Shown: piece after piece, positions 17,456 to 39,633 of the stretch
Layout of the letters: each line of letters starts with the position of its first letter
Position numbering within the stretch: the stretch's first letter is position 1
Assembly (NCBI RefSeq): GCF_014645315.1
Contig: NZ_BMLQ01000001.1
Coordinates: 119,665-183,664, forward strand
DNA from: Citricoccus zhacaiensis
GTDB taxonomy: Bacteria > Actinomycetota > Actinomycetes > Actinomycetales > Micrococcaceae
DNA length: 64,000 bases
Direction: 5' to 3'
Position numbers and translations under genes: made by a program
The notes under the pieces: model-generated
What the model saw: the letters and a program-made list of their open reading frames with translations, nothing else
Databases searched by the model: none
Told to the model about the DNA's origin: nothing

Positions 17456-17527
17456 CTCGTGTCCTTCCACCAGTGACATCCATACTCTGGCACCGCGGTG
17501 CCGACGGTGGCCATCACTGCGGCGGAT

Positions 17528-17544
17528 GTCTCACATATTGAGAC
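17528..17544. promoter_or_regulatory. Palindromic operator in the leuC / IclR intergenic region
   Basis: GTCTCA (17528-17533), spacer CATAT, TGAGAC (17539-17544): a perfect six-base inverted repeat centred between the divergent genes and upstream of the regulator's -10 (TAGTAT, 17547-17552). NdgR/LtbR regulators are known to bind upstream of leuCD in Streptomyces and Corynebacterium. The same 17-bp architecture recurs upstream of ilvB at 39596-39612, which makes it the best candidate site for the regulator encoded here. That the IclR protein binds it is inference. Confidence 0.7.
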
Positions 17545-17558
17545 GCTAGTATCAGAGT

Positions 17559-18320
17559 ATGGACACTTCGGAGCAGGAGACACCGCAGGCCCTCCACACC
17601 CCCAGCGGGGTCGGCGTGGTGGACAAGGCCGCCGCCATCCTGGACGCCCTCGAGGCCGGGCCGACGTCGCTGGCCGAGCTGGTCTCCGCCACGGGCATCG
17701 CGCGGCCGACCCTCCATCGCCTCGCCTCGGCACTCGCCCACCACCGGCTGGTCGGCCGTGACCTCCAGGGCCGCTACGTCCTGGGCAGCCGGCTCTCCGA
17801 GCTGGCCTCGGCCGCCGGTGAGGACCGGCTGACGGCGGCCGCCGGCCCGGTGCTGTCCCGGCTGCGGGATGCCACCGGGGAGAGCTCCCAGCTCTTCCGC
17901 CGGCAGGCCGACGCCCGCGTGTGCGTCGCCAGTGCCGAGAGGCCCGTGGGGCTCCGCGACACCATTCCGGTCGGGACCCGGCTGTCCATGAAGGCCGGCT
18001 CCGCCGCACAGGTGCTGCTGGCCTGGGAGGACAACGAACGGCTCGTCGAGGGCCTCAACGGGGCCGTCTACACCCCCACGGTGCTGGCCGCCGTCCGGCG
18101 CCGCGGGTGGGCCCAGTCGCTGGGGGAACGCGAGCCCGGAGTCGCCTCCGTCTCGGCGCCGGTGCGCGGTCCGAGCGGACGGGTGATCGCCGCCGTGTCC
18201 ATCTCCGGGCCCATCGAACGGTTGACCCGCCAACCCGGACGGGTCCACGCGGAGACGGTGATGCGCCACGCGCACAACCTCACCGAACTGATCCGGACCA
18301 CGCACACCCAGGCACGCTAG
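17559..18320 (+). CDS. IclR-family regulator of leucine genes (NdgR/LtbR type)
   Basis: A 253-residue IclR protein: a winged helix at about 20-85 (TSLAELVSATGIARPTLHRL) and a C-terminal effector domain ending in SVSAPVRGPSGRVIAAVSIS. The whole sequence strongly resembles NdgR of Streptomyces and LtbR of Corynebacterium, which sit next to leuCD and control leucine and other amino-acid genes. TAGTAT lies six bases before the ATG, so the transcript is probably leaderless and would be controlled by the adjacent palindrome. Orientation, neighbour and sequence all agree. Confidence 0.92.
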   Translation: MDTSEQETPQALHTPSGVGVVDKAAAILDALEAGPTSLAELVSATGIARPTLHRLASALAHHRLVGRDLQGRYVLGSRLSELASAAGEDRLTAAAGPVLSRLRDATGESSQLFRRQADARVCVASAERPVGLRDTIPVGTRLSMKAGSAAQVLLAWEDNERLVEGLNGAVYTPTVLAAVRRRGWAQSLGEREPGVASVSAPVRGPSGRVIAAVSISGPIERLTRQPGRVHAETVMRHAHNLTELIRTTHTQAR

Positions 18321-18423
18321 GGACGCTAGGCACTCGGACAGCAGCGAAGTGTTCGCGCATTCGAGGCATGGTGTTCGCCTCCCCGCCGTGACCTCGGACG
18401 CGGCCGTCCCTACGATGGGCCAC

Positions 18424-19947
18424 GTGACCAACCCAGCCATCGATGCCGTCCAGACCGAGCCTGCCGTCCGTACCGGGACTGCAGCATCCACTGCCCCCAG
18501 ACCGGAGAGCGCCGCGGGCGGGGGGCCACCGCTGCGCGTCTCAGTGGTCGGGACGGGCTATCTGGGAGCCACGCATGCGGCGTGCATGGCGGAGCTGGGT
18601 TTCGAGGTCCTGGGGCTGGACATCGATCAGGCGAAGATCGACGCGTTGACCCGCGGGGAACTGCCCTTCCACGAGCCCGGCCTGCCGGAACTGCTGACCC
18701 AGCACGTTCAGTCCGGCCGGTTGCGGTTCACCACGTCCTACGAGGAGGTCGGCGCCTGGGCCGATGTGCACTTCATCGGGGTCGGCACCCCGCAGAAGCC
18801 CGGCGAGTCGGCAGCGGATCTGCGCTTCGTGGATGCCGCCGTGAGATCCCTGGCCGAGCACATCACCCGGGACGCGTTGATCGTGGGCAAGTCCACCGTC
18901 CCGGTCGGCACCGCCGCTCGCCTCAAGGACCTGCTCGCCTCCACCCGGCAGGCGGCCGGCCTGCCGGGCACGGTTGAGCTGGCCTGGAATCCGGAGTTCC
19001 TGCGCGAGGGCTACGCGGTCAAGGACACCCTGACCCCGGACCGCCTGGTCGCCGGCGTGGAATCGGCCCATGCCGAGGACATCCTGCGGCAGGTGTATGC
19101 CAAGTCCCTGGCCGAGGGCACACCGTGGATCGCCACCGACTTTGAGACCGCCGAACTGGTCAAAGTCGCCGCCAACGCGTTCCTGGCCACCAAGATCTCC
19201 TTCATCAACGCCTTCTCCGAGATCACCGAGCAGGTCGGCGGGGACATCGGCACCCTGGCCGACGCGATCGGCCACGACCCTCGGATCGGGCGGAAGTTCC
19301 TCAACGCCGGCGTCGGCTTCGGTGGTGGCTGCCTGCCCAAGGACATCCGGGCGCTGCAGGCGAGGGTCTCCGAACTCGGGCTGGACCGCACCATGCGTTT
19401 TCTGGCCGAGATGGACGACATCAACCTGCGCCGCCGCGACCGCGTGGTCGACCTCGCCGTGCAGGTCCTCTCCCACAGCCTCCACGGCTCGGTCCGCGTC
19501 GCCGGCGCCGACGGAGCGGGCAGCGTCCCCTCCCCGGCCGCCGTCGAGATCCTGAACGGCGCGAAGATCGCGATCCTCGGCGTCACCTTCAAGCCGAACT
19601 CGGACGATGTGCGCGACTCCCCCGCCCTGGATGTGGCCAACCGGCTCTACACCGCCGGGGCCGAGGTGGCCGTCTACGACCCGAAGGGCAACGCCAACGC
19701 CGCCAAACGGTTTCCCCGCCTGGGCTACGTCAACACCCTCGCCAAGGCCGTCATCGGTGCCGACCTGCTCATCCTGCTCACCGAATGGGACGAGTTCCGC
19801 CAGATGGACCCCGAGGACATCGGCCGGCTCATGGACCGCCGCACCCTCATCGACGCCCGCAACGTCCTGGACCCCTCCCCCTGGCACGCCGCCGGATTCA
19901 CCCACGCCGCCCTCGGACACCGCTTCGCCCCGGACTCGTCGGGGTGA
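18424..19947 (+). CDS. UDP-glucose/GDP-mannose dehydrogenase family protein
   Basis: A 507-residue NAD-dependent sugar-nucleotide dehydrogenase, most likely oxidising UDP-glucose to UDP-glucuronate for an acidic wall or capsular polymer. An N-terminal Ala/Pro-rich stretch precedes the Rossmann motif VGTGYLGATHA. The catalytic cysteine lies in GFGGGCLPKDIRAL, and LGVTFKPNSDDVRDSPALD marks the C-terminal domain. GTG 18424 is chosen because TACGAT is seven bases upstream; an ATG at 18415 falls inside that hexamer. GalU at 0.8 kb supplies the expected substrate. GDP-mannose dehydrogenase is the main alternative. Confidence 0.88.
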   Translation: MTNPAIDAVQTEPAVRTGTAASTAPRPESAAGGGPPLRVSVVGTGYLGATHAACMAELGFEVLGLDIDQAKIDALTRGELPFHEPGLPELLTQHVQSGRLRFTTSYEEVGAWADVHFIGVGTPQKPGESAADLRFVDAAVRSLAEHITRDALIVGKSTVPVGTAARLKDLLASTRQAAGLPGTVELAWNPEFLREGYAVKDTLTPDRLVAGVESAHAEDILRQVYAKSLAEGTPWIATDFETAELVKVAANAFLATKISFINAFSEITEQVGGDIGTLADAIGHDPRIGRKFLNAGVGFGGGCLPKDIRALQARVSELGLDRTMRFLAEMDDINLRRRDRVVDLAVQVLSHSLHGSVRVAGADGAGSVPSPAAVEILNGAKIAILGVTFKPNSDDVRDSPALDVANRLYTAGAEVAVYDPKGNANAAKRFPRLGYVNTLAKAVIGADLLILLTEWDEFRQMDPEDIGRLMDRRTLIDARNVLDPSPWHAAGFTHAALGHRFAPDSSG

Positions 19948-19972
19948 TGCCACGGAGAACGACGCCGGCCGG

Positions 19973-21148
19973 TCACCGGTCCGTGAAGTGGTCCCACCCG
20001 TCAGCACCGCCAACGCTGCCGGTGCTGCCGGTGCTGCCCTCGTGCTCTGCTGCCGCGGGTGTTCCCGACTCGGCGACCAGGCGTCCGATCCGCCGGAATC
20101 CCGCGGGCACCGCGGCGCCTGCGGGCAGGGCGGCGAGGAGGCCGTAGTCCTCTCCCCCAGCGGACACCCAGCGTTCGGCGGTCCGCTGCCCGCTCGCGGG
20201 ATCCAGGGCGCAGGCCAGGGGCATGAGGGCCGAGGCCTCGCGGCGCACCCAGTCCGGATCGAGCTCCGCCCGCAGACCGTTGGCCGCGGCCAGGCGGCCG
20301 GCGTCCTTCAGCACACCATCGGAGACATCCATCATGGCCAGTGCCCCGGCCTCGGCGGCCACCCGTCCTGCCCCCAGCACGGGCCGGGGCCGGAGTTGGG
20401 CGGCGGCCGCCAGCGCGGCGAGCCGCCGGACGCCGGGTTCCGCGTGTTCCGACTGTTCTGCCTGTTCGGCAGCGCGCAGCAGTTCACTCAACCGCCCGCG
20501 GGGCGTCTCCAGCACGTTCAGGCCGGCGGCGGCCCAGCCGGCCCGGCCACACAGGACCAGGTCCAGTTCATGGCCAGCCGTGACCGCACGGGCTGCAGGC
20601 GGCAGGGTGCGCCGCACCGCCGGCCGGCCATCCAGGTCGCCCGTGGCGGTGACGGCCACGGTGATGCGATCGTCCGAGCCCAGGTCTCCGCCGACGATCC
20701 GGCAGCGAGTCGCCCCGAGGTGACGCACCGCCCCGGCGAGCCCGGCCGCGAGGCCGTCGATCCAGGCCACAGGGGTGGCAGGGGGCATGGTCAGGGCCAG
20801 GAGGAGGCCGGAGGGCTCACCGCCCATGGCGTTGATGTCGGAGAGGTTCTGGGCGGCGGCCTTCCAACCGGTGGAATAGCCGCCCGCCAAGCCATGTCCG
20901 TCGAACATCACGCCGTGAACGGCTGGCCAGTCCAGCCGGAAGTCACGGTCCTGCGCCATGGCATCCGTCGTGATGACGAACCGGCCATCCGGGGCGGCCA
21001 CCACGGCGGCATCGTCTCCGGGGCCGACGGTCCCCTCCGGCCAGTCTCCCGCGGCCGGCACGGCGGCGAAACGGCGGTTCAGGATCCGCAGGATCCCCGA
21101 TTCGCCCAGTCCGCCGACGGTCTGGCGGGCTCGCGGGGCCGGTGTCAT
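19973..21148 (-). CDS. thiL: Thiamine-monophosphate kinase
   Basis: Phosphorylates thiamine monophosphate to the pyrophosphate cofactor. The 391-residue protein has the ThiL N-terminus GPGDDAAVV, the TTDAM...DFRLDW motif, NLSDINAMGGEP, and DVSDGVLKDAGRLA. The start at 21148 (MTPAPRARQTV) leaves eleven bases after the GTPase stop; upstream in-frame sequence is not ThiL-like. Ala-rich inserts make it longer than E. coli ThiL. It is the last gene of a three-gene run with two GTPases. Confidence 0.94.
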   Translation of the reverse strand: MTPAPRARQTVGGLGESGILRILNRRFAAVPAAGDWPEGTVGPGDDAAVVAAPDGRFVITTDAMAQDRDFRLDWPAVHGVMFDGHGLAGGYSTGWKAAAQNLSDINAMGGEPSGLLLALTMPPATPVAWIDGLAAGLAGAVRHLGATRCRIVGGDLGSDDRITVAVTATGDLDGRPAVRRTLPPAARAVTAGHELDLVLCGRAGWAAAGLNVLETPRGRLSELLRAAEQAEQSEHAEPGVRRLAALAAAAQLRPRPVLGAGRVAAEAGALAMMDVSDGVLKDAGRLAAANGLRAELDPDWVRREASALMPLACALDPASGQRTAERWVSAGGEDYGLLAALPAGAAVPAGFRRIGRLVAESGTPAAAEHEGSTGSTGSVGGADGWDHFTDR

Positions 21149-21159
21149 GCCAGGCGCGG

Positions 21160-22878
21160 TCAATGGCGCCCGCTGGCCGCCGCCAGCGCCTCCCGGAACG
21201 CACCGTAGCGTTCGATCTCCGCCGTCACCGGCTCGGCGATGCGCTCGCGGGCGACCTTCGAGACCGCGGCGCGCAGCCGGCGTCGGGCACGGCGCGCACG
21301 GTTCCGTGCCCCCAGCCGCACCAGCGGGGTCATCAGCAGTGCCAGCAGCAGCCCGAAGGCCAGTCCGCCGAACACGAGCAGGGTGGGGATCGGGAAACCC
21401 TCCACGGCCGGGGCGGGTGGCACGTCGAACTGGAAGTACCCGGCCAGGGCCAGGACGCCCAGCCAGGCGAGGCCGGCCACGGCGGCCACCAGCGCGATCC
21501 ACTGGAGGGCGTTGACCACGTGCCACCACCAGGAACCCTTCCCGGCCCCCAGGTCGGTGGAGGTGATTGCCTGGTCCAGTTCGTCCGGGAGCGTGTCCGC
21601 ATGGCTCCGGGCGGCACGGCGGATGGCCGAACGCCACGCGTCCGGGGCGCCGGCGCCCGTGACCTCGGCGAAGGCGCGGATGGCGCCGTCGGCCTGCGCC
21701 CGCTGCGCCGGGCTGCGCTCGGGCAGCGAGCTCCGGTGCAGTCGCGGATCGTCTGCCGTGGAGGCCGGCGCCCGGTTCGTCCCGCGCTGCGGATCGTCCC
21801 CGCGTCGCAACCCGAGCCGGCGCAGCGGGTCCTGACGGAGGCGCGTGGCCCACCGGACCACGGGCCATCCGGTGCGGCGGCCGCCCTCCATCCGGTAGGA
21901 CCGCTGCACGGCCCGCACCACGGTGGTGACGCCGGCAGCCTCGGTCAGAGCGTCCACGAGCCTGGCCTCATCCGCCTTCCCGACGCCGGCCGGAACGCCT
22001 CCCGCGTCCCCGGCGCCGAGGGCCTTGGCGGCCGTGCGCACATCCGAGAGCAGCCGTTCACTGGCGGCGCTCTGCCGTTCAGCCACCTCCGCGATGGCGG
22101 ACCGGAGCGGCTCGACGCCGGCACCGGTGGTGGCCGAGGCAGGATAGACGGGCACGCGGGCGAGGCCGTCCTGAGCCAGGATGCCCTTCAGGGATGTGGT
22201 CACGGCCCCCACGTCCGCCTCGGCGAGCCGGTCGACCTGGTTCAGGACCACGAGGGTGACGCCGCGGTGGGCGGCCAACGGCTCGAGGAATTCGCGGTGC
22301 AGGGCGGCATCCGCGTACTTCTGCGGATCGACGACCCAGACGAGCACGTCCACCTGGCCGGCCAGCCGGGTCACGATCTCCCGGTGCCGGACGGCGATCG
22401 AGTCGAAGTCCGGCAGGTCCAGCAGGATCAGGCCCCCGGGTTGGTCGTTCTGTCGGCCATTCAGCCGACCCCAGCGCTCGCCGAGCAGCCGGGACCACGG
22501 GCCCGAGGGCTCGGTTCCGGCCGCGGGGCCGTCCAACTGGTGGCGCTGGGAGACCTCCAGCCAGTCGAGCAGCGGTGCGGACCCGTCCGCACCCCACACG
22601 GCGGCCAGGGGCTCGGAGGTCGTGGGCCGCGTGGCAGCGGCGCGGGCGAGCGGGTGACCGGTGACCGCGTTGAAGAGGCTGGACTTGCCGGACCCGGTGG
22701 CGCCGAAGAAGCCGACGACCGTGTGGTCGGCCGAGAGCCGGCGTCGTTCCCGGGCCCGCTCCACCACTTGACCGGCTGCGGCCAGCATCTCCTCGGACAC
22801 CCGCCCCTCGCCCAGCTGGGTGGCGGTCTCGAGCGCGGTGAGCTTGCGGTCCAGCGGACCGGAGTCGAAGATCGTCAC
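21160..22878 (-). CDS. Membrane-associated GTPase, second of a tandem pair
   Basis: A 572-residue protein with an N-terminal G domain: G1 GATGSGKSS, G2 region RPTTSEP, G3 DLPDFDS and G4 NQVD. A basic, helical central region is followed by two hydrophobic segments around VVNALQWIALVAAVAGLAWLG and PTLLVFGGLAFGLLLALLM, and then an Arg-rich tail. The layout recalls dynamin-like or YfjP-type GTPases of actinobacteria. It starts with GTG three bases after the first GTPase. Membrane remodelling or division is a possible role; none can be proven from sequence. Confidence 0.75.
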   Translation of the reverse strand: MTIFDSGPLDRKLTALETATQLGEGRVSEEMLAAAGQVVERARERRRLSADHTVVGFFGATGSGKSSLFNAVTGHPLARAAATRPTTSEPLAAVWGADGSAPLLDWLEVSQRHQLDGPAAGTEPSGPWSRLLGERWGRLNGRQNDQPGGLILLDLPDFDSIAVRHREIVTRLAGQVDVLVWVVDPQKYADAALHREFLEPLAAHRGVTLVVLNQVDRLAEADVGAVTTSLKGILAQDGLARVPVYPASATTGAGVEPLRSAIAEVAERQSAASERLLSDVRTAAKALGAGDAGGVPAGVGKADEARLVDALTEAAGVTTVVRAVQRSYRMEGGRRTGWPVVRWATRLRQDPLRRLGLRRGDDPQRGTNRAPASTADDPRLHRSSLPERSPAQRAQADGAIRAFAEVTGAGAPDAWRSAIRRAARSHADTLPDELDQAITSTDLGAGKGSWWWHVVNALQWIALVAAVAGLAWLGVLALAGYFQFDVPPAPAVEGFPIPTLLVFGGLAFGLLLALLMTPLVRLGARNRARRARRRLRAAVSKVARERIAEPVTAEIERYGAFREALAAASGRH

Positions 22879-22881
22879 GGG

Positions 22882-24657
22882 TCAGCCCTCCCGTCCGGCC
22901 AGCCGGCGCAGTTCGGGGACGAGGGAAAGCAGCTGATCGGTCTCCTCCTGGTCACGGACGCCGTCCAACAGCGCGGTGAACCGGCGGGCGTCGGATTGCA
23001 GCAGCCCGGTGATCCGGTCCACGAGGTTCGCCTGGGAGCGTTGGGCCAGCCGGCGGACGGCGTCCTCGCCGAAGATCGATTCGAGCAGCTTCTGCGCCAC
23101 TACCGCAGTCCCGCCGGCGATCCCGACCTCGATGCCCAGCAGCCCACCGGTGGCGGCGAAGGAGACGATCATCAGGGTCACGGCCACGCCGTTCACCCCC
23201 AGAGCGGAGATCCGGGCCATCGTCCGCTTGCCGGCACCCTCGCGTTCGATCAGGGCGATCAGGTCACCCTGCCAGCCGCGGATCTCGGCGGCCGCGCGGT
23301 CGCTGAAGTCGGCGGGGAGCCTGGCCGGATCCTGACCGGTGACGAGCGCGCGTCCGGCGGCGTCCTGACGCCAGCGCTGGGCGGACTCCTCGGAGGCCGC
23401 CGCAGCCTGTTCCACGAGGACGGCGTGCAGGCCCGTCTCGATCGCCGTCTCGACCTCCTCCGGTGGGGCCGGCCGGCCGCGGAAGAAGGACGTGATCCGG
23501 TCCCTCAGCCGCCCGATCCCCGATTCCAGCGTGCGGAAGAACTCTCCCGTGCCGACAAAGTCCTGCCAGCGGGAGAGCACCTCGCCGCGCAGCAGCGTCC
23601 CGTCCTGGGTGGAGGCCAGCACGCCCGCCAGCGCCTGCTCGTAAGCGGAGTCCACGTCACCGGCCAGCCGGGCCGACGCGTGGCGCTGGTCGTCCTCGGC
23701 GTCCGCCAGGTCCGAAGTCTTCTCAGCCAGTTGCCGGACCACCCCGTTGAGCGTGCGGCGGGCAACCTCCGCACGGGAACCGGCATCGCCGGCAATGGAT
23801 TCCAGCCACTCTCGCAGCGGCCGCACGGCGCCCGCCGGGAGCATCCCCTGGACGTCGAGGGCGGATTCCGTGACGACGAAGAGCCCGGCCGAGCCCAGCC
23901 CCTGACGCTCGAGGAGTCCGCGCAGGTCCGTGGCCACCTCGTCCTCCACGCCGGCCGGAACGCGGTCCAGCACCACGGCGACCGTGATGTCCCGGGCGGC
24001 GGCGTCCAGGAGCAGCTCCCAGGGGACGGCATCCGCATAGCGGTTCGCGGTGGTGACGAAGATCCACAGGTCTGCGGCCGAGAGCAGCTGACCGGCCAGT
24101 CGCCGGTTCTCGTCCGCGATGGAGTCGATGTCCGGGGCGTCCAGCAGGGCCAGGCCGGCGGGCAGGGCCGGTTCGGCCACCAGGACCAGGGAATTGATGG
24201 CCTCGGGATCCGGATCCACCCCTGCGCGTTCCGCGGGCACCGCGGTTCCGGGCACGGCGCGGCGGCCGGTGGTCCGGGAGAGGTTCGGCAGCACGCGGGC
24301 GGTGGTGAACCAGTCGACGTCCTCCGGGTGGTGGAGGAGGATCGGTTGCCGTGTGGTCGGGCGGATGGCGCCGGAACGGGTCACGGCGTGCCCCACCAGG
24401 GCATTGACGAGCGTGGACTTGCCGGCACCGGTGGATCCCCCGACGACGGCCAGCAGCGGTGCGTCCAGGCTGCGGTACCGCGGCAGGACGTAGTCGTCCA
24501 GTTGGGCCACGGCGGAATTCCGCACCCGGGCGGCCTCGGCGGCCCCGTCGATCCCGAGCGGCAGGGACACCCCGGCCAGTTCGCTGCGCAGCCGGCTCAG
24601 CAGGTCCACGGCCTGGGCCGCTCGCTGCGGCGGGACGGGGGTGGGATCAGTGCTCAC
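22882..24657 (-). CDS. Membrane-associated GTPase, first of a tandem pair
   Basis: A 591-residue GTPase: G1 GGSTGAGKST, G2 region RPTTRQP, G3 DAPDIDS, G4 VLDRVP (a departure from the usual N/TKxD). One or two hydrophobic stretches lie near the C-terminus (GVAVTLMIVSFAATGGLLG). The open frame extends upstream through tRNA-Glu, which cannot be coding. GTG 24657 is preferred because CATGAT stands seven bases upstream, the leaderless arrangement. The pair arrangement resembles tandem bacterial dynamin operons, but orthology to DynAB is not claimed. Confidence 0.75.
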   Translation of the reverse strand: MSTDPTPVPPQRAAQAVDLLSRLRSELAGVSLPLGIDGAAEAARVRNSAVAQLDDYVLPRYRSLDAPLLAVVGGSTGAGKSTLVNALVGHAVTRSGAIRPTTRQPILLHHPEDVDWFTTARVLPNLSRTTGRRAVPGTAVPAERAGVDPDPEAINSLVLVAEPALPAGLALLDAPDIDSIADENRRLAGQLLSAADLWIFVTTANRYADAVPWELLLDAAARDITVAVVLDRVPAGVEDEVATDLRGLLERQGLGSAGLFVVTESALDVQGMLPAGAVRPLREWLESIAGDAGSRAEVARRTLNGVVRQLAEKTSDLADAEDDQRHASARLAGDVDSAYEQALAGVLASTQDGTLLRGEVLSRWQDFVGTGEFFRTLESGIGRLRDRITSFFRGRPAPPEEVETAIETGLHAVLVEQAAAASEESAQRWRQDAAGRALVTGQDPARLPADFSDRAAAEIRGWQGDLIALIEREGAGKRTMARISALGVNGVAVTLMIVSFAATGGLLGIEVGIAGGTAVVAQKLLESIFGEDAVRRLAQRSQANLVDRITGLLQSDARRFTALLDGVRDQEETDQLLSLVPELRRLAGREG

Positions 24658-24714
24658 GCATCCCATCATGGCACCGGAACTGGACACCGGAGCGCAGCAG
24701 GTTCCGACAGGCAA

Positions 24715-24747
24715 AGAAAAAGACCCGGTCCTGATGGACCGGGTCTT
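24715..24747 (-). terminator. Intrinsic terminator of tRNA-Glu
   Basis: A perfect 12-bp stem (24720-24731 with 24736-24747) and a TGAT loop, followed on the minus strand by TTTTTCTTT. It starts seven bases after the encoded CCA of tRNA-Glu, so it ends the tRNA transcript and isolates the GTPase promoter downstream. Confidence 0.9.
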
Positions 24748-24753
24748 CTCACA

Positions 24754-24829
24754 TGGTGACCCCAGCGGGATTCGAACCCGCGTTACCGCCGTGAGAGGGC
24801 AGCGTACTAGGCCGCTATACGATGGGGCC
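24754..24829 (-). tRNA. tRNA-Glu (CTC)
   Basis: Cloverleaf on the minus strand: acceptor GGCCCCA pairs with TGGGGTC, the T arm reads GCGGG-TTCGAAT-CCCGC, and the anticodon loop CTCTCAC gives anticodon CTC for glutamate. CCA is encoded at 24756-24754. It lies downstream of tRNA-Gln and not far from gltX, a common actinobacterial arrangement. No strong promoter is evident between the two tRNAs, so joint transcription from the tRNA-Gln promoter is likely. Confidence 0.95.
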
Positions 24830-24943
24830 GTCACCGTTGCTCAACCGTCCTGCCGTGAGGCATTTCCGCTTGGGCAACCCCAGTAGTATTTCACACTCTG
24901 GGGGATTCCACCAAATCGATCGAAACCGAACCGATGGACTCCG

Positions 24944-25015
24944 CTGGGGTACCAGGACTCGAACCTAGAATGACGGTACCAGAAACCGTTGTGTTGCCGA
25001 TTACACCATACCCCA
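24944..25015 (-). tRNA. tRNA-Gln (CTG)
   Basis: Minus-strand cloverleaf: acceptor TGGGGTA/TACCCCA, anticodon stem ACGGT/ACCGT around loop TTCTGGT, anticodon CTG for glutamine, T loop TTCGAGT. The discriminator is G and CCA is not encoded. A good promoter lies 80-108 bases upstream. Confidence 0.95.
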
Positions 25016-25094
25016 ATGGCTGTCAAGGAGATGATCCGGTGGCCCGGATCCCTCCTACGCCATTCATGCCGGACTCACTCCGGCACGGGTGTTT

Positions 25095-25123
25095 ACTATA
25101 CCGGCGTTCCGGCCCAATGACAA
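25095..25123 (-). promoter_or_regulatory. Sigma70-type promoter of tRNA-Gln/tRNA-Glu
   Basis: On the minus strand TTGTCA (25123-25118), a 17-base spacer and TATAGT (25100-25095): near-consensus housekeeping promoter. Transcription would begin about 25088, 70 bases before mature tRNA-Gln. Its -35 lies 41 bases from the divergent permease start codon. Confidence 0.8.
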
Positions 25124-25164
25124 AACGGCCGCCACGCGGCCTCCCCCGCGCTTACAGTGTGTCC

Positions 25165-28124: not shown

Positions 28125-28252
28125 GATGGCCACCATCCTAGTGCGGCCCCCGCCGCCTTCTCGTCACGGGCGGTCCGGCGGCCGCTGCGGAGTCCACTGC
28201 GGAGGTCCTCCCCCGGGCCGGCCAGGTGGTGGGGCAGCGTCAGCGGCGGAAC

Positions 28253-29056: not shown

Positions 29057-29142
29057 GCCACCAGCCTAAGTCAGTGCAGCCCGTGTGACGGTCCGCCGGA
29101 TCATGCCTGCCGAATCACGCCCCCGGGATCACGCTCGGGGAA

Positions 29143-30273: not shown

Positions 30274-30319
30274 GGCAACTTCTTTCTCATCGGGTGCATC
30301 CATCATAGAACCCGCCGGC

Positions 30320-31432
30320 TCAGACAGAGCGGGCGATGGCATCACCGATCTCGGCGGTGCTCCGAGCAGTCGCACTGTCCGCCCCGCCGCGGGCCGCGAT
30401 GTCCGCGTACACAGCCTCGTTGATGCGGCGGGCGGCCTCGGAGCGGCCCGCGTGCTCGAGCAGCAGGGCGCCGGAGAGGATGGCTGCCGTCGGGTCGGCC
30501 TTCTGCTGGCCGGCGATGTCCGGGGCGGAGCCGTGGACCGGCTCGAACATGGACGGTGCGGTGCCGGAGATGTTGACGTTGCCGGAGGCGGCCAGACCGA
30601 TGCCCCCGGTGACGGCCGCGGCGAGATCCGTGAGGATGTCACCGAACAGGTTGTCCGTCACGATGACGTCGAAGCGGGCCGGGTCCGTGGTCATGAAGAT
30701 GGTGGCGGCATCGACGTGCATGTAGTCGTGGGTGACGTCCGGGTGCTCGGCGGCCACGGCTTCCACGGTGCGGCGCCACAGGTGGCCGGCGTGGACCAGG
30801 ACGTTGTGCTTGTGCACCAGGGTGACGTGGCGACGATCGCGGGTGGCGGCCAGGGCGAAGGCATGGCGGACCACACGGTCCACGCCGAAGGCGGTGTTGA
30901 TGGAGACCTCGGTCGCGATCTCCTGCGCCGTGCCGGTCCGGATGGCGCCACCGTTGCCCACGTAGGGGCCCTCGGTGCCCTCACGGACCACCACGAAGTC
31001 GATGTCCCCGGGGTGGGCCAGCGGGCTCGGGACTCCAGGGTAGAGGCGAGACGGGCGCAGGTTCACGCCGTGGTCGAGCGAGAACCGGAGCTTGAGCAGC
31101 AGCTCGCGTTCGATCAGCCCCGAGGGGATCCGGGTGTCGTTCGGGGCAGCGCCGACGGCGCCGAACAGGATGGCGTCATGGCCTCGCAACTGCTCCAGCG
31201 CCTCGTCGGTGAGGGTCTCTCCCGTCGCGAGCCAATGGGCGGCACCGAGGGTGTACTCGGTGGCCGTGATCTCGGCGTCGCCGGCGGCAGCGGTGGCCGC
31301 ACGCATGACTTTGAGGGCCTCGGCGGTGACTTCCGGGCCGATCCCGTCGCCACCGATGACGGCGAGGTCCAGGGCCGTGGTCGCACCGGAGGAGGTAGCG
31401 GACGGAGCGGTGGCGGAGGCTGTGTTGTCCAT
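30320..31432 (-). CDS. leuB: 3-isopropylmalate dehydrogenase
   Basis: Oxidative decarboxylation of 3-isopropylmalate in leucine synthesis. The 370-residue protein shows GGDGIGPEV, the RLYPGV/REGTEG region, VHKHNVL, the metal-binding [18 protein letters not shown] stretch and [14 protein letters not shown] 31432 has TAGCCT six bases upstream (leaderless), and a perfect 13-bp inverted repeat lies just further upstream. It is separated from leuCD, as in many actinobacteria. Confidence 0.96.
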
Positions 31433-31463
31433 GGCGACAGGCTAGGCCGACGCCCTCATGACC

Positions 31464-31498
31464 GTCCACCATGTGGTCGAGCTGTCCACATGGTGGAC
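31464..31498. repeat. Perfect 13-bp inverted repeat between metG and leuB
   Basis: GTCCACCATGTGG (31464-31476) and CCACATGGTGGAC (31486-31498) are exact reverse complements around a 9-base spacer. It lies six bases after the metG stop and about 20 bases upstream of the leuB -10, so its proximal arm falls over the leuB -35. It could be a tail-less terminator of metG, an operator of leuB, or both. No U-run follows on the minus strand. Confidence 0.6.
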
Positions 31499-31504
31499 GC
31501 GGTC

Positions 31505-33151
31505 TCAGCCGGCGTCCGGCTCCTCGTGCCGCGGGAAGACCGGCTGGGGCGCGGGCAGGGAGCTGCCCGGCACCAGGGCCTCGTCCCAGGCCGCGAAGGA
31601 GCGCGGGCCGGCGCCCGAGGCACCGGTGCGGCCGGCGTCGCCACTGGGGGCGATACCCAAGAAGTCCAGCAGTTTCGCGGCGGACCCGGGCATGACCGGC
31701 TGCACCAGCAGGGCCACGCGCCGCACGGTCTCCAGGGTCACGTAGAGCACCGTGGCCATCCGCGCGGGGTCGGTCTTGCGCAGCACCCAGGGCTGCTGCT
31801 CCGCGAAGTAGGCGTTCGCATCGCCCAACAGCGCCCAACTGACCTCGAGGGCATGGTGGTAGTCCTGCACGCGGTAGTCCGCGCGGGCCGTGTCCAACAG
31901 GCCGGCGGCTGCGTCCAGCAGGGCACGGTCCGCCCCGGTGTACTCCCCCGGCTGGGGCACCACACCGTCCAGGTTCTTGGCCACCATGGACAGGGACCGC
32001 TGGGCGAGGTTCCCGAGGTTGTTGGCCAGGTCCGCGTTCTTGCGCCCGACGACGGCCTCGTGGCTGTACGAGCCATCGGCACCGAAGGGGAACTCGCGCA
32101 GCAGGAAGTAGCGCACGGCGTCCAGACCGTAGTGCTCGACCCACTCCGCGGGACCGACCACGTTGCCCAGGGACTTGGACATCTTCTCGCCGTTGTTGTT
32201 GAGGAAGCCGTGGATCATGACCCGCCGGGGCAACTCGAGTCCGGCACTCATCAGGAAGGCGGGCCAGAAGATGCAGTGGAACCGCGAGATGTCCTTGCCG
32301 ATCACGTGCAGGTCGGCGGGCCAGAAGCGGAACTGCTCCGAGTCCTCCGCCGGGAAGCCGGCACCGGTGAGGTAGTTGGTCAGGGCGTCCACCCACACGT
32401 ACATGACGTGGTCCTGCGTGGGCCGGTTGCCGGAGCCCGCAGCGGGTGCCGGGACTTCGATCCCCCAGTCGAAGGAGGTCCGGGAGATGGACAGGTCCTC
32501 CAGGCCGGACTCGACGAAGCGGATGACCTCGTTGAACCGGGACTGCGGCGCGGCGAAGTCCGGGCGGGTGTGGTACAACTCGAGCAGCCGGTCCTGGTAC
32601 TGGGACAGACGGAAGAAGTAGCTCTCCTCCTCGGTCCACGTCACCTCGGTGCCGGTCTCGGTGGCGTAGCGCTTTCCGTCCGGGCGGACCTCGGTCTCGT
32701 CCTCGCCGAAGAAGCGCTCGTCCCGGACGGAGTACCAGCCGGCGTACTGGTCCAGGTAGATGTCCCCGGCGGCCTCCATGCGACGCCAGATCTCCTGGAC
32801 CGCCAGGGTGTGGTCGGCATCCGTGGTGCGGATGAACCGGTCATAGGAGATGTCCAGCACCTCGTCGTCGACCGCCTTGAACGCCGCCGAGTTCCGGGTG
32901 GCGAGCTCCAGGGCCGTGATGCCCTCGGCCTGCGCCGTCTGCTGCATCTTCTGGCCGTGCTCGTCCGTGCCCGTCAGGAAGTACACGTCCTTGCCGTCCA
33001 GCCGCTGGAACCGGGCCATCACGTCCGTGCCGACGAACTCGTAGGCGTGCCCGATGTGGGGTTCACCGTTCGGGTACGAGATGGCGGTCGTCAGGTAGTA
33101 CGGCTCCCGCTCGGGGGTCTGGTTCTGGGGCTCGGCATCCGGAGAAGTCAC
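31505..33151 (-). CDS. metG: Methionyl-tRNA synthetase
   Basis: Class I synthetase charging methionine to initiator and elongator tRNA. The HIGH motif is PHIGH (residues 31-35) and KMSKS is at 323-327. The 548-residue protein lacks the C-terminal tRNA-binding dimerisation domain of longer MetRS. The stretch [28 protein letters not shown] is typical. GTG 33151 has TAGATT exactly six bases upstream, so the mRNA is probably leaderless; that hexamer overlaps the stop codon of the preceding membrane-protein gene. Confidence 0.97.
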
Positions 33152-33160
33152 CCGTCGAAT

Positions 33161-33997
33161 CTATCGCATCGCCGACGCCGGCCGGTCCGGTTCGCTGCCC
33201 CGCCGGCGGCCGGCGTGCCACGTCAGTTCCAGCCCGCTGGCCACCCGATCGGGCGCCAGCCGGACGGCTGCCAGCGGCGCGACCACCAGGAGGGCGGAGC
33301 CGGTGAACTCCAGCAGTTCCTCCACGTGATAGCTCGCCACGTAGGCCCACGAGTCCAAGGGCACCCCGGCCGCCACCACCACGGCCTCAGCACCGAGCGC
33401 CCCGAGGAAGAACACCAGGATGCCCAGCACATACAGCGCCATGGACGGGGCCGGCAGCACGCGGGCGCACAGCCACAGGAACACGACGACGGCCCCGGCC
33501 ACCGGTACGCCCAGCATCAGCCACTCGAAGGCCGGCAGCGGGTTGTCCCCCACGAGCCGCCGCCACAGCCCGTCCAGGCGTTCGTGGATGCCGGCGAACT
33601 CGTCCAGGGACATCAGGGCCAGCAGGGCGCCCAAGCCGCCCCAGGCGGCCCACCCACTGCGACCGTCCAGGCGCGTGGGGCGGCGCAGCAGTCCGACGGC
33701 GACGCTGAGGGCACCGGCCATCAACAACAGGCCCGTGTTCCACCAGGTCGGCAGGTTGCGCTCGCCGGCCACGTCGAAGAACACCCGCACCGGGGAGGTG
33801 CGGTCCACGGGGCCGACTCCCAGGACCAGGGGCACCACCGCGGAGAGGATGACCAACACCAGCCCGGCGGCGAGCAGGAACCACACGGTGGGCTGCCACC
33901 ACGGGCCCGTGCTTCCGCGGCGCGTGTCAGAGCGGGCCTCGGGCATCCCGCGGTCGTCTGCGACTTCAAGGGCCTCTGGTACCAACGTCTTCTGCAT
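33161..33997 (-). CDS. Multi-spanning membrane protein of unknown function
   Basis: Not assigned to a family. The 278-residue protein has a hydrophilic N-terminus of about 30 residues and about six hydrophobic segments (for example TVWFLLAAGLVLVILSAVVPL and GVPVAGAVVVFLWLCARVL). Charged motifs lie inside or next to membrane segments: DEFAGIHERLDGLW in the middle and YHVEELLEFTG near the end; the conserved-looking His/Glu residues could bind metal or heme. It ends with an Arg-rich tail. It is followed by metG, whose -10 overlaps its stop. The start could also be a TTG at 34009. Confidence 0.7.
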   Translation of the reverse strand: MQKTLVPEALEVADDRGMPEARSDTRRGSTGPWWQPTVWFLLAAGLVLVILSAVVPLVLGVGPVDRTSPVRVFFDVAGERNLPTWWNTGLLLMAGALSVAVGLLRRPTRLDGRSGWAAWGGLGALLALMSLDEFAGIHERLDGLWRRLVGDNPLPAFEWLMLGVPVAGAVVVFLWLCARVLPAPSMALYVLGILVFFLGALGAEAVVVAAGVPLDSWAYVASYHVEELLEFTGSALLVVAPLAAVRLAPDRVASGLELTWHAGRRRGSEPDRPASAMR

Positions 33998-34051
33998 GGC
34001 AGAAGTCAAGCAACCGCGGATGAGAGCGTGATGAGGGACACGCCGGGAGGG

Positions 34052-35650
34052 TCAGTCCTCCAGGTCGATGCCGGCCACCTTCGAGGCGCCGATGGCGTTG
34101 CCCAGCTCCTCCGCCACGCCGGACGGCAGCGTGGCGTCCAGGGTCAGCAGGGCCAGGGCCTCCCCGCCCTCCTCCTGGCGGGACACGTCCATGCCGGCGA
34201 TGTTCACGCCGGCATCCCCGAGGACCTGGCCGATGGTGCCGATGACGCCCGGGCGGTCGGTGTAGCGGAACACGAGCAGGTGCTCGGCCATGGGGACCTC
34301 GAGCTCGTAGCCATCGATGCCGACGACCTTCTGCACCTGCTTCGGTCCCGTCAGGGTGCCGGCCACGGAGAGCTGGGTGCCGTTGGAGGTGGCGCCCTTG
34401 ACGGTGACGGTGTTCCGGTAGGCCGGGGACTCGGCGGTGGTGGTCAGGCGGGACTCGACGCCACGCTGCTCGGCCAGGACCGGGGCGTTGACGTAGGAGA
34501 CCTGATCCGAGACCACGTCCGTGAACACGCCCTTGAGGGCGGCCAGCTGCAGGGACTTCACGTCCTTGTCCGCGATCTCACCGGCGACCTCGAGTTCCAC
34601 CACGGTGAGCGAGTCCCCCGTGGACAGGGCCGTGAGGATGCGGCCGAGCTTCTCGGCCAGCGGGATGCCGGGACGGACATCCTCGTGGATGACGCCGCCA
34701 GCCACGTTGACGGCGTCCGGGACGAGCTCGCCGGCCAGCGCCAGGCGCACGGACTTGGCCACGGACACGCCGGCCTTCTCCTGGGCCTCCTCGGTGGAGG
34801 CGCCCAGGTGCGGGGTGACCACGGCGTTGTCATGGGCGAAGAACGGCAGGTCCACAGCCGGTTCGGAGGAGAAGACGTCGATGGCCGCGCCACCGATGAT
34901 GCCCGCCTCGAGGGCGCGGTGCAGGGCGTCCTCGTCGATCAGGCCACCGCGGGCGACGTTCACCACGAAGGCGCTGTCCTTCATGATCCGGAACTGCTCG
35001 TCCGAGATCATGCCGAGGGTCTCCGGGGTGCGCGGCATGTGGATGGTGATGAAGTCGGACTCGGCCAGCAGCTCGTCGAGGGACAGCAGCCGGGCACCGA
35101 TCTGCTGGGCGCGGGCGGAGGTGACGTACGGGTCGTAGGCCAGGATCTCCATGCCGAAGGAGCGCATGCGCTCGGCCACGAGCGAGCCGATCCGGCCCAG
35201 GCCGATGATGCCGAGCTTCTTCTCGTAGAGTTCGACACCCGAGTACTTGGAACGCTTCCACTCGCCGCCCTTGAGCGCACGGTTGGCCGGGGCGATGTTG
35301 CGGGCCACCCCGAGGATGTGGCCGCAGGTCAGTTCCGCGGCCGAGAGGATGTTGGAGGTCGGGGCGTTGACGACCATGACGCCGGCCTGGGTGGCGGACT
35401 TCGTGTCCACGTTGTCCAGCCCGACTCCGGCGCGGGCGATGACCTTCAGGTTCGGAGCGGCCGCGATGGCCTCGGCGTCCATCTTCGTGGCCGAGCGGAC
35501 CAGCACCGCGTTGGCCTCCGGCAGGGCCGCCAGCAGCTGGGCCCGGTCCGCACCGTCCGTGGTCCTGATCTCGAAGTCCGGACCGAGCGCGTCCACCGTG
35601 GCCGGGGAGAGTTCTTCAGCAATGAGGACAACGGGCTTGGTCTCAGACAC
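34052..35650 (-). CDS. serA: D-3-phosphoglycerate dehydrogenase
   Basis: First step of serine synthesis: 3-phosphoglycerate to 3-phosphohydroxypyruvate with NAD. The 532-residue protein is the long type: substrate and nucleotide domains with IIGLGRIGSLVAERM, an allosteric-substrate-binding domain at about 315-450, and a C-terminal ACT domain (VFRYTDRPGVIGTIGQ) for serine feedback. GTG 35650 has GAAGGTGA about seven bases upstream. TAGAAT (about 35718-35713) directly behind the ilvC terminator is the likely promoter, giving a leader of roughly 55 bases. Confidence 0.96.
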   Translation of the reverse strand: MSETKPVVLIAEELSPATVDALGPDFEIRTTDGADRAQLLAALPEANAVLVRSATKMDAEAIAAAPNLKVIARAGVGLDNVDTKSATQAGVMVVNAPTSNILSAAELTCGHILGVARNIAPANRALKGGEWKRSKYSGVELYEKKLGIIGLGRIGSLVAERMRSFGMEILAYDPYVTSARAQQIGARLLSLDELLAESDFITIHMPRTPETLGMISDEQFRIMKDSAFVVNVARGGLIDEDALHRALEAGIIGGAAIDVFSSEPAVDLPFFAHDNAVVTPHLGASTEEAQEKAGVSVAKSVRLALAGELVPDAVNVAGGVIHEDVRPGIPLAEKLGRILTALSTGDSLTVVELEVAGEIADKDVKSLQLAALKGVFTDVVSDQVSYVNAPVLAEQRGVESRLTTTAESPAYRNTVTVKGATSNGTQLSVAGTLTGPKQVQKVVGIDGYELEVPMAEHLLVFRYTDRPGVIGTIGQVLGDAGVNIAGMDVSRQEEGGEALALLTLDATLPSGVAEELGNAIGASKVAGIDLED

Positions 35651-35727
35651 GGGTCAATCACCTTCGTTTGGATCAGTGGCGCCGACGCGGTGGCTCGGGT
35701 CGGCCAGTTTCGATTCTAGGGGCAGAC

Positions 35728-35764
35728 GACGCCGGCCCCTCGCGCAAGACGAGGGGCCGGCGTC
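35728..35764 (-). terminator. Terminator hairpin after ilvC
   Basis: A perfect 15-bp stem, GACGCCGGCCCCTCG (35728-35742) with its exact complement (35750-35764), loop CGCAAGA. It begins 33 bases after the ilvC stop and ends ten bases before the serA -10 hexamer. No U-run follows on the minus strand, so this is a GC-rich, tail-less terminator. Confidence 0.75.
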
Positions 35765-35797
35765 GGGCATTTCACGGGAACTGCGAGGTCAGGCGAC

Positions 35798-37398
<1,601 letters not shown>

Positions 37399-37400
37399 GG

Positions 37401-39272
37401 TCAGTCCTCCTCGTCCCAGTCCGGGGTCATGTCCTTGGCGACCTGGATCTCGCTGTTGCCCACGCCGGCCGGAACCATCGGCCACACCATGGAGTCACGG
37501 GAGACCACGAAGTCGACGACCACGGGGCGGTCGTTGATCGCCAGGGCCTGTTCGATCGTCGCGTCCAGGTCCTCCTCGTTCTCGCACCGCAGGCCGACAC
37601 AGCCGTAGGCCTCCGCGAGCTTGACGAAGTCGGGCACCCGGATGGTGTCATGCCCGGTGTTCAGGTCCGTGTTCGAGTAGCGGGACTCGTAGAACAGGGT
37701 CTGCCATTGGCGGACCATGCCCAACGAGGAATTGTTGATGATCGCCACCTTGATCGGGATCTTGTTGATCAGGCAGGTGGCCAGCTCCTGGTTGGTCATC
37801 TGGAAGCAGCCGTCCCCGTCGATGGCCCAGACCACGCGGTCCGGGTTGCCGACCTGGGCGCCCATGGCGGCGGGGACCGCGAAGCCCATGGTCCCGAGCC
37901 CGGCGGAGTTCAGCCACTGATGTGGGCGCTCGTACTTCACGAACTGGCTGGCCCACATCTGGTGCTGGCCCACGCCGGCCACGTACACGGCCTCGGACCC
38001 GGAGTGCTCGGAGAGCCGCTCGATGACCTTCTGCGGGCTCATCAGGCCGTCCTCGGTGGGCGCGTAGCCCATCGGGTAGGTCTCGCGGAGCCGGTTCAGC
38101 ACGGTCCACCACTCGGCCAGGTCCGGCGTCCCGGCCTCGGCATGGGTGTCCCGTACGGCATCGGTGAGCTCGGGGATGATCTCCTTGACCGAGCCCACGA
38201 TCGGCACGTCCGCGGTCCGGTTCTTGGAGATCTCGGCCGGGTCGATGTCGGCGTGGATGACCTTGGCCTTCGGCGCGAAGGAGGCCAGCTGGCCGGTGAC
38301 GCGGTCGTCGAACCGAGCCCCGAGCGTGATCAGCAGGTCGGACATCTGCAGGGCGGAGACGGCGGCCACGGAGCCGTGCATGCCCGGCATGCCCAGGTGC
38401 TGCTCATGGGAGTCCGGGAAGACGCCGCGCGCCGTCAGGGTGGTCACGACCGGCGCGCCGGTCAGTTCGGCGAGTTCGGCCAGCTCGACGCTGGCATGGC
38501 CGCGGGAGACGCCGCCGCCCACGTACAGGACCGGACGCTCGGCCCGCTGGATGAGCCGGGCCGCCTCCCGCACCTGCTTGGAGTGACCGCGGACCACCGG
38601 CCGGTAGCCCGGCAGGTCGATCTTCGGGGGCCAGGAGAACTCCATCATCGCTTGCTGGGCGTCCTTGGCGACGTCCACCAGGACGGGGCCGGGACGGCCG
38701 GTGGTGGCGATGTGGAAGGCCTCGGCCATGGCCTGGGGGATGTCGGCGGCGTTCGTGATCAGCCGGGAATGCTTGGTGATCGGCATGGTGATGCCGACGA
38801 TGTCCGCCTCCTGGAAGGCATCGGAGCCGATGGCCGTCGAGGCGACCTGACCCGTGATGAACACGCAGGCCTGGGAGTCCATGTGGGCGTCCGCAATGGC
38901 CGTCACGAGGTTGGTGGCACCGGGACCCGAGGTGGCGATCGCCACGCCCGGCCGGCCCGACGCCAGGTAGTAGCCCTGTGCCGCGTGGCCCGCGCCCTGC
39001 TCGTGGCGCACCAGGATGTGACGGATGGTGGTGGAGTCCATCAACGGGTCGTAGGTCGGCAGGATGGCTCCGCCCGGAAGGCCGAACACGTCCGTCACGC
39101 CCAGTTCCTCCAGCGCCCGCACGATCGCCTGTGATCCGGTCATCTGCGCCGGCTCGACGACCCGGTTGGGGCCGGGGACCAGACTGTCGGCCGACGACTC
39201 GTTCCTGTCCCGCTTGTCGCGGGCCGTATGGGATGGCATCACCGACGGGGTGATGCGAGATCCGTTGCTCAT
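37401..39272 (-). CDS. ilvB: Acetolactate synthase large (catalytic) subunit
   Basis: Thiamine-diphosphate enzyme joining two pyruvates or pyruvate and 2-oxobutyrate. The 623-residue protein carries an N-terminal hydrophilic extension of about 40 residues, the catalytic Glu in [22 protein letters not shown], and the cofactor-binding [15 protein letters not shown]...[11 protein letters not shown] 39272 is chosen because the homologous core starts soon after; the frame is open through the leader but not coding there. It is the first gene of ilvBNC, behind a 270-base leader with an attenuator. Confidence 0.97.
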
Positions 39273-39417
39273 TGCTGTGCCTTCTTCGTCACTGCTAGTC
39301 CGATGGCTACTCAAAGCCCCTTGGGTGCCCGGCCCGGGTGTCCCCCGGGTCGTCCGCCTGCTGGCGGAGAAACCAGTGAAGCCGATGTGGTGGCCGGCTT
39401 CGTTCCGCTTCCCCAAC

Positions 39418-39458
39418 AAAAAAACCCCGACGGCGGCCGGTTGGCCTACTCGGGGTTT
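39418..39458 (-). terminator. Attenuator terminator of the ilvBNC leader
   Basis: On the minus strand AAACCCCGA (39458-39450) pairs with TCGGGGTTT (39430-39422), with an internal GGCC-GGTT-GGCC mini-hairpin, followed by seven T (39424-39418). It lies between the leader peptide and ilvB, so it ends transcription early unless prevented. Just upstream, GCGCCTGGC at the 3' end of the leader ORF can pair over 9 bp with GCCAGGCGC (39468-39460), directly next to the terminator stem: the usual competing-helix layout. Confidence 0.85.
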
Positions 39459-39499
39459 CGCGCCTGGCAGCGGGCGGACCCGCCGTACCGAACCGTGGT

Positions 39500-39544
39500 T
39501 CAGGCCAGGCGCTGGATAACGACGACTAGTCGTGTGTTGGACAT
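39500..39544 (-). CDS. ilvB leader peptide (attenuation)
   Basis: A 14-residue [17 protein letters not shown], read from ATG 39544. Five consecutive codons, Leu-Val-Val-Val-Ile (CTA GTC GTC GTT ATC), name exactly the three end products of the pathway, and another Leu follows. GATACT lies six bases before the ATG with TTGACA 19 bases further up, so this ORF is itself leaderless. Ribosome stalling on these codons when branched-chain amino acids are scarce would favour read-through of the terminator at 39418-39458. Leader-peptide attenuation is known for ilvBNC in Corynebacterium; here it is read from sequence. Confidence 0.85.
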
Positions 39545-39550
39545 GCGACC

Positions 39551-39581
39551 AGTATCCCCGAGTGGGTGCTGACGGTGTCAA
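39551..39581 (-). promoter_or_regulatory. Promoter of the ilvBNC leader
   Basis: Minus strand TTGACA (39581-39576), a 19-base spacer and GATACT (39556-39551). The -35 is perfect; the spacer is two bases longer than ideal, which leaves room for control by a factor bound at the palindrome centred at 39604, directly upstream. Confidence 0.7.
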
Positions 39582-39595
39582 TCTACCGGACACCC

Positions 39596-39612
39596 GTCTC
39601 ACATCGTGAGAC
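39596..39612. promoter_or_regulatory. Second copy of the NdgR/LtbR-like palindrome, upstream of ilvB
   Basis: GTCTCA-CATCG-TGAGAC, the same arms and spacer length as the palindrome at 17528-17544. It is the apex of a longer perfect 17-bp inverted repeat (39586-39602 with 39606-39622, loop ATC) that begins twelve bases after the ilvD stop and ends four bases before the ilvB -35. So one element could serve both as ilvD terminator and as operator of ilvBNC. Binding is inferred. Confidence 0.65.
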
Positions 39613-39633
39613 GGGTGTCCGGTTCGTGGACAT

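Follow-up and report, generated by a model that had tools for sequence, protein, structure and literature searches.

The 64,000-nucleotide stretch of the Citricoccus zhacaiensis genome analysed here (contig NZ_BMLQ01000001.1, hereafter the window) carries the 17-bp palindrome GTCTCA-N5-TGAGAC both between leuC and a gene for an IclR-family regulator and upstream of ilvB. The palindrome is very likely the operator of this adjacent protein, a predicted ortholog of NdgR and LtbR, which would link the leucine, isoleucine and valine genes of this species and its relatives; the regulator probably represses its own gene and activates ilvB and leuB. An initial annotation, made by eye, had proposed that one IclR regulator, encoded at 17559-18320, serves the leu and ilv operons, and the computational analysis agreed with this proposal: leuC/iclR, ilvB and leuB share a common 17-bp register, and the operator is conserved across the class beside leuC/iclR and was not found in the examined genomes where the IclR ortholog is missing.

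The window contains two exact copies of the palindrome, at 17528-17544 and 39596-39612 and at no other position, as had been annotated; the mean in 100 shuffled sequences was 0.00 and the largest number was 0. Three exact copies were found genome-wide and none of the reversed pattern used as a control, the third copy being located outside the window, between upp and the gene for an OmpR-type winged-helix regulator. When up to two mismatches were allowed, 4 sites were obtained in the window (2.7 expected, i.e. chance level) and 55 in the genome (42 for the reversed control). Since these mismatch searches were near chance, only the exact form is informative. In the genus, 16 exact copies were found across eight genomes, one genome having none, and all of them were at three loci: leuC/iclR (3), ilvD-ilvB (7) and upp/winged-helix (6). 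Near misses often replace the absent exact copies in the genus, for example ATCTCACATNNTGAGAC at leuC/iclR of genomes G003 and G007. The annotated motif included a spacer beginning with CAT, which holds within the genus (16 of the 16 exact sites, in a single orientation) but not in the family as a whole, in which GATNN and AATNN are common spacers at leuC/iclR. Among the 395 genomes of the family, GTCTCACATNNTGAGAC was present in 44 genomes from 12 of 32 genera (53 copies; reversed control 0). A locus could be assigned to 39 of these 53 copies, 16 of them within the genus, and every one was at leuC/iclR, ilvB, ilvD, the winged-helix gene or an amino-acid permease gene. The 23 placed copies from outside the genus were distributed over the winged-helix gene (4), leuC/iclR (3), ilvB (2), the start of ilvD (3) and the permease gene (11).

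At leuC/iclR the operator GTCTCACATATTGAGAC (17528-17544, no strand assigned) is an exact match in the intergenic region, centred 23 nt upstream of the iclR start codon. A putative -10 box of a leaderless iclR mRNA, TAGTAT (17547-17552, plus strand), lies 2 nt past it. The iclR gene (17559-18320, plus strand) encodes the proposed binder, an NdgR/LtbR-like regulator of 253 residues with the Pfam domains HTH_IclR and IclR_C. Its matches to PF09339 and PF01614 both exceed the cut-off, as in the architecture of the NdgR/LtbR subgroup, and it diverges from leuD and leuC, both on the minus strand, in the gene order of that subgroup; by these sequence-level marks it would be a member. The divergent candidate target leuC (15947-17479, minus strand), whose start codon is at 17479 or at a later ATG, encodes the large subunit of 3-isopropylmalate dehydratase (NCBIfam TIGR00170, 720 bits, cut-off 560). 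For LtbR, a 12-bp motif CA(T/A)ATAGTGxGA was reportedly described by Brune in 2007, and it would fit the middle of the site. Outside the family, 105 genomes of the class had an IclR match, and in the subset of 68 loci examined a LeuC match adjoined the IclR start without exception. With a looser pattern, the operator was detected at 80 of 80 named Micrococcaceae loci and at 64 of the 68 loci outside the family, in 24 of 25 families (0.3 expected in each set). The iclR start codon is exactly 14 nt beyond the operator in 48 of the 56 family genomes in which pattern matching gave an operator, and these represent 25 genera. A -10-like box lies within this interval; the operator must overlap the promoter of iclR. 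The closest named relatives by IclR protein (91%) were two metagenome-assembled genomes, Micrococcus sp. Bu38 and Citricoccus sp. WCRC_4. In another family of the class (f19), nine genomes of 7-10 Mb (L259, L261, L262, L266, L271-L274 and L276), perhaps of streptomycetes, share a leuC/iclR site of the form GTTTCACAG[AT][GT]TGAGAC, which departs from the published Streptomyces NdgR consensus.

Two operators, both on the minus strand, were found at ilvB. The proximal one, GTCTCACGATGTGAGAC (39596-39612), is the exact match and is centred 60 nt before the start codon of a leader peptide; it had been annotated as ending just before the -35 box, and the gap to TTGACA (39576-39581, minus strand) is 14 bp. 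The distal one, TGTCCACGAACCGGACA (39616-39632), centred 80 nt before the same codon, had been missed. The putative -10 box is GATACT (39551-39556) with a spacer of 19, and a simple sigma-70 scan, which allowed spacers of 16-18 only, gave no promoter in this -35 region. Downstream on the minus strand follow a 14-residue leader peptide predicted by translation (39500-39544), whose start codon is probably also the transcription start; an attenuator-type terminator hairpin followed by T7 (39421-39459; terminator scan 1 found versus 0.3 expected; z of the leader fold -3.80); and ilvB (37401-39272, ATG at 39270-39272), the gene for the acetolactate synthase large subunit, whose N-terminal 229 residues match NCBIfam acetolactate synthase models. 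The Rfam scan of the window yielded four tRNAs only and no leader family at threshold, including at 39421-39544. The ilvB transcript would begin with a leader peptide and then a terminator, a known type of actinobacterial feature.

The arrangement at ilvB recurs in the family. In the 45 family genomes where a simple rule found the leader peptide, the distance from the operator centre to the downstream start codon of the peptide was 58-61 nt for 29 sites and 78-82 nt for 22. Operator pairs 19-22 bp apart were present at ilvB in 25 of 63 family genomes and 13 of 32 genera (0.0 expected), and no such pairs were found in the leuC/iclR or winged-helix regions of the family. The sequence TTGRC begins 23 or 24 nt from an operator centre in 40 of the 47 genomes with an ilvB operator, compared with 3.1 of 63 random stretches. 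The promoter-side half was of the TGAGA type in all 40 of these fixed-phase genomes, and the other half of the NGTCC type in 30.

A second tandem pair stands before leuB (30320-31432, minus strand), which encodes 3-isopropylmalate dehydrogenase (NCBIfam NF002898, 558 bits, cut-off 393). The proximal operator CGACCACATGGTGGACG (31463-31479, minus strand) is centred 39 nt and the distal operator CGTCCACCATGTGGACA (31483-31499, minus strand) 59 nt before the leuB start codon, and a putative -10 box TAGCCT is at 31439-31444. All eight genus loci carry the tandem, with an NGTCC-type distal site matching that of the window and a second site 20 bp closer to the gene, whose centre is 39-40 nt upstream of the start codon; the 17 proximal bases are GACCACATGGTGGAC in seven of the eight. 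The distal site GTCCACCATGTGGAC fits the published NdgR motif GTCCAC-N3-GTGGAC. The initial annotation had suggested looking upstream of leu, ilv, ser and met genes; it had not named leuB as a carrier of the motif, and the window scan detected no such site before serA (34052-35650) or metG (31505-33151). No operator was detected before ilvD in the window either, and three genomes of another genus (g9) have an operator at the ilvD start.

The composition of the sites was analysed with inverted pairs of the half-sites RTCTCR and/or NGTCCR in the upstream regions of 63 family genomes, or 62 for iclR, as the iclR region of G035 runs into a contig end. At leuC/iclR, ilvB and the winged-helix gene, these pairs are most frequent when 5 bp separate the halves. 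With this spacer, symmetric RTCTCR pairs were found at leuC/iclR in 49 of 62 genomes (0.3 expected). At ilvB, symmetric RTCTCR, hybrid and symmetric NGTCCR pairs were present in 13, 33 and 25 of 63 genomes (0.1, 0.2 and 0.5 expected), and at the winged-helix gene in 14, 30 and 4 of 63 (0.1, 0.3 and 0.3 expected); in most family genomes the sites at these two loci combine the two half types. Counting any class, 51 of 62 leuC/iclR regions, 47 of 63 ilvB regions and 45 of 63 winged-helix regions had a site. A matrix built from 55 leuC/iclR sites alone recognised the ilvB regions of 23 genomes and the winged-helix regions of 19, out of 63 in each case (p<=0.02). Not every control was flat: at leuC/iclR, NGTCCR pairs exceeded chance at spacers 6 (4 of 62, 0.3 expected) and 10 (3, 0.5 expected), and the test in the class did so at spacer 0 (6 of 68, 0.38 expected).

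The distribution of the regulator also points to the IclR protein as the binder. An ortholog was detected in every one of the 63 family genomes and in 107 of the 118 class genomes. Eleven class genomes have no match at E<=1e-45, and in the seven examined the pattern found no operator at leuC (0 of 6; leuC was not found in G403), at ilvB (0 of 6; G449 left out) or at the winged-helix gene (0 of 3). Searching seven whole genomes of the order with RTCTCANNTNNTGAGAY turned up a single site, upstream of ilvB in G504; the search fails to separate genomes with and without IclR, because three of the four with IclR also had none. In three genomes of family f4 (G474, G484 and G494), which lack an IclR ortholog at the same threshold, ilvB follows almost directly after ilvD, and in G474 an FHA-like protein, as read from its open reading frame, precedes leuC in place of IclR.

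Two further genes are candidate targets. The third exact copy is 226 nt upstream of the gene for a 278-residue OmpR-type winged-helix protein (L003:1501-2580), which matches Pfam Trans_reg_C and in which no receiver domain was found; the neighbouring upp has an NCBIfam match. All 63 family genomes carry this gene, as do 5 of 118 class genomes. The predicted structure of its product has a mean predicted local distance difference test score (pLDDT) of 59, too low for a fold search. The best solved-structure matches of the protein are the OmpR-family regulators 8hml, 8hig and 8hih, which we take to be GlnR. In L003:1440-1545 and the equivalent regions of most of the relatives listed, a TGTGA-N6-TCACA-like box precedes the operator and a TTGTTACTTGC-like block follows it; the former is possibly a CRP/GlxR-type site, and the latter possibly a promoter or an autoregulatory repeat. 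In genera g32 and g31 (L032-L034, L036-L042 and L044), a gene for a BcaP-like amino-acid permease is likewise preceded by an exact operator. Open reading frames were read for four of these 11 loci, six were assigned by flank pattern and L038 by eye. The L034 permease scored 480 bits to the BcaP branched-chain transporter model, under the cut-off of 690. At the g32 loci the permease gene has a divergent neighbour that resembles a phosphate acetyltransferase gene (348 bits at L039, under the cut-off of 418).

From the sites, their register, spacing and conservation, and their co-occurrence with the IclR gene, we infer binding by the IclR protein, the transcription starts and the sign of regulation. 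An IclR dimer would read two 6-bp half-sites in inverted orientation with 5 bp between them, either of which can be RTCTCR or NGTCCR. At leuC/iclR a single dimer would sit over the iclR promoter (centre -23 from the leaderless start), upstream of leuC, and would therefore repress iclR. At ilvB (-60 and -80) and leuB (-39 and -59), two dimers would occupy adjacent sites as a dimer of dimers. They would be separated by about two turns of the helix and held at a constant distance from the promoter, the geometry usual for an activator, and the fixed upstream sites at both genes favour activation. A second control of the ilvB operon would come from the leader peptide with its Leu/Val/Ile codons and the terminator. 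A wider scheme is possible, although we would sooner doubt it than rely on it: a two-word operator code in which RTCTCR and NGTCCR share one register and their arrangement sets the sign. Symmetric RTCTCR over the promoter would give autorepression, while tandem dimers at -60/-80 (ilvB, with the promoter-side half always of the TGAGA type) or at -39/-59 (leuB) would give class I-like or class II-like activation, respectively. In Micrococcaceae the circuit would extend to the OmpR-type regulator next to upp, which is specific to the lineage, and in some genera to the branched-chain amino-acid permease, and the branched-chain amino-acid state would thus feed a second regulator. If this code is true, the published Streptomyces motif represents only half of it.

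Several observations weigh against the operator assignment and the dual role proposed for the IclR protein. The tandem pair at ilvB is limited to the 13 genera given above, and 16 of 63 ilvB regions and 18 of 63 winged-helix regions are negative by pattern. Outside the genus, a spacer-5 match at leuB was found in 8 of 20 regions at scattered positions (13 of the 41 stretches surveyed had been dropped for want of a LeuB match). Of the four genomes of the order with IclR, two have an ilvB site and two have none. The loss test is small, covering seven of 11 class genomes without IclR, and it is confounded by the nearly absent ilvD-ilvB gap in the three f4 genomes. The available part of one study of Corynebacterium glutamicum (PMC6515235) describes repression of leuCD and leuB by LtbR, unlike the dual role proposed here, and gives acetohydroxyacid synthase (IlvBN) activity as unchanged after LtbR deletion (143 to 139), with isopropylmalate isomerase increasing from 37 to 167. 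Such a repressor would agree with the iclR site, which clearly covers its promoter, and the same IclR protein might repress everywhere, the upstream sites at ilvB and leuB serving for looping or for blocking an activator. However, the ilvB sites are upstream of the -35 box at a fixed phase, and work on S. coelicolor (PMC10331944, as far as its accessible text goes) is cited against this explanation, which we regard as unlikely but worth keeping in view.

Two other explanations have a far smaller chance. The ilvB site lies within a perfect 18-pair hairpin (39585-39623; -39.1 kcal/mol, z -7.0), about 10 nt past the ilvD stop codon, and a terminator was therefore treated as a live rival: the ilvB copy would be the inner part of the ilvD terminator and its likeness to the leuC/iclR site a coincidence. 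However, the hairpin has no T-run on either strand and was not reported by the terminator scan, four of the seven genus members aligned (G002, G003, G004 and G005) have lost its outer arm on the promoter side while retaining the half-sites of both operators, and same-register ilvB sites at a fixed promoter distance occur in 47 of 63 family genomes. An intrinsic terminator of ilvD, for which a hairpin exists without a T-run or a conserved outer arm, is largely refuted and was rejected; we consider the coincidence extremely improbable, and the hairpin would arise from chance complementarity of the two operators and their flanks. It is also highly improbable that the site belongs to another protein, such as the winged-helix product autoregulating its own gene. 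That gene is preceded by a site and occurs throughout the family, but the protein cannot account for the site, because it is found in only five of 118 class genomes, compared with the leuC/iclR operator at 64 of 68 loci outside the family. Moreover, the three f4 genomes retain the winged-helix gene and have neither an IclR ortholog nor an operator at leuC, ilvB or the winged-helix gene, and winged helices of the OmpR type usually bind direct repeats. The winged-helix protein as binder is disfavoured by its distribution in the class and by these f4 genomes.

Regulation of this kind by NdgR/LtbR proteins is known. In the accessible text of PMC4340878, NdgR of Streptomyces coelicolor binds ilvB, ilvD, leuB, leuC/ndgR and metF in vivo, and its gene is divergent from leuCD, as iclR is here. 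Its 15-bp motif GTCCAC-N3-GTGGAC corresponds to NGTCCA-N5-TGGACN in the 17-bp register, i.e. to the second half-site type found here (PMC4340878). Unlike the NdgR sites, most sites here have RTCTCR halves or are hybrids, and the winged-helix and permease genes are among the candidate targets. The ligands of NdgR are described as remaining to be characterised in the portion available of PMC10704036. LtbR is likewise divergent from leuCD and controls leuCD and leuB, like the candidate regulon here (PMC6515235, in part). The NdgR/LtbR consensus given in a survey of the IclR family, KTYCRSMWYSYGRRM, fits the inner 15 bases here except at one position; in the available text of the survey it is one degenerate motif, whereas two half-site types with fixed placements are present here (PMC8222616). 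Actinobacterial ilvB leaders combine a short open reading frame rich in Leu/Val/Ile codons with a terminator, as here, and leader-codon changes in S. coelicolor are reported, within the available text, to have no effect on ilvB (PMC1262725). The operators would form a layer separate from this leader and attenuator, and a possible means of controlling ilvB transcription in Actinobacteria, given that result (PMC1262725, in part). A literature search among open-licence papers, with the top matches listed, gave nothing on NdgR/LtbR sites in Micrococcaceae, and the layout described here and the presence of a regulator gene among the targets look new. Starting from a palindrome spotted by hand, the analysis arrives at a regulon that can be tested and whose exact sites are given for four promoter regions, three of which lie within the window. 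Its operator geometry predicts the sign of control for each gene, which may help to explain why NdgR has been called an activator and LtbR a repressor.

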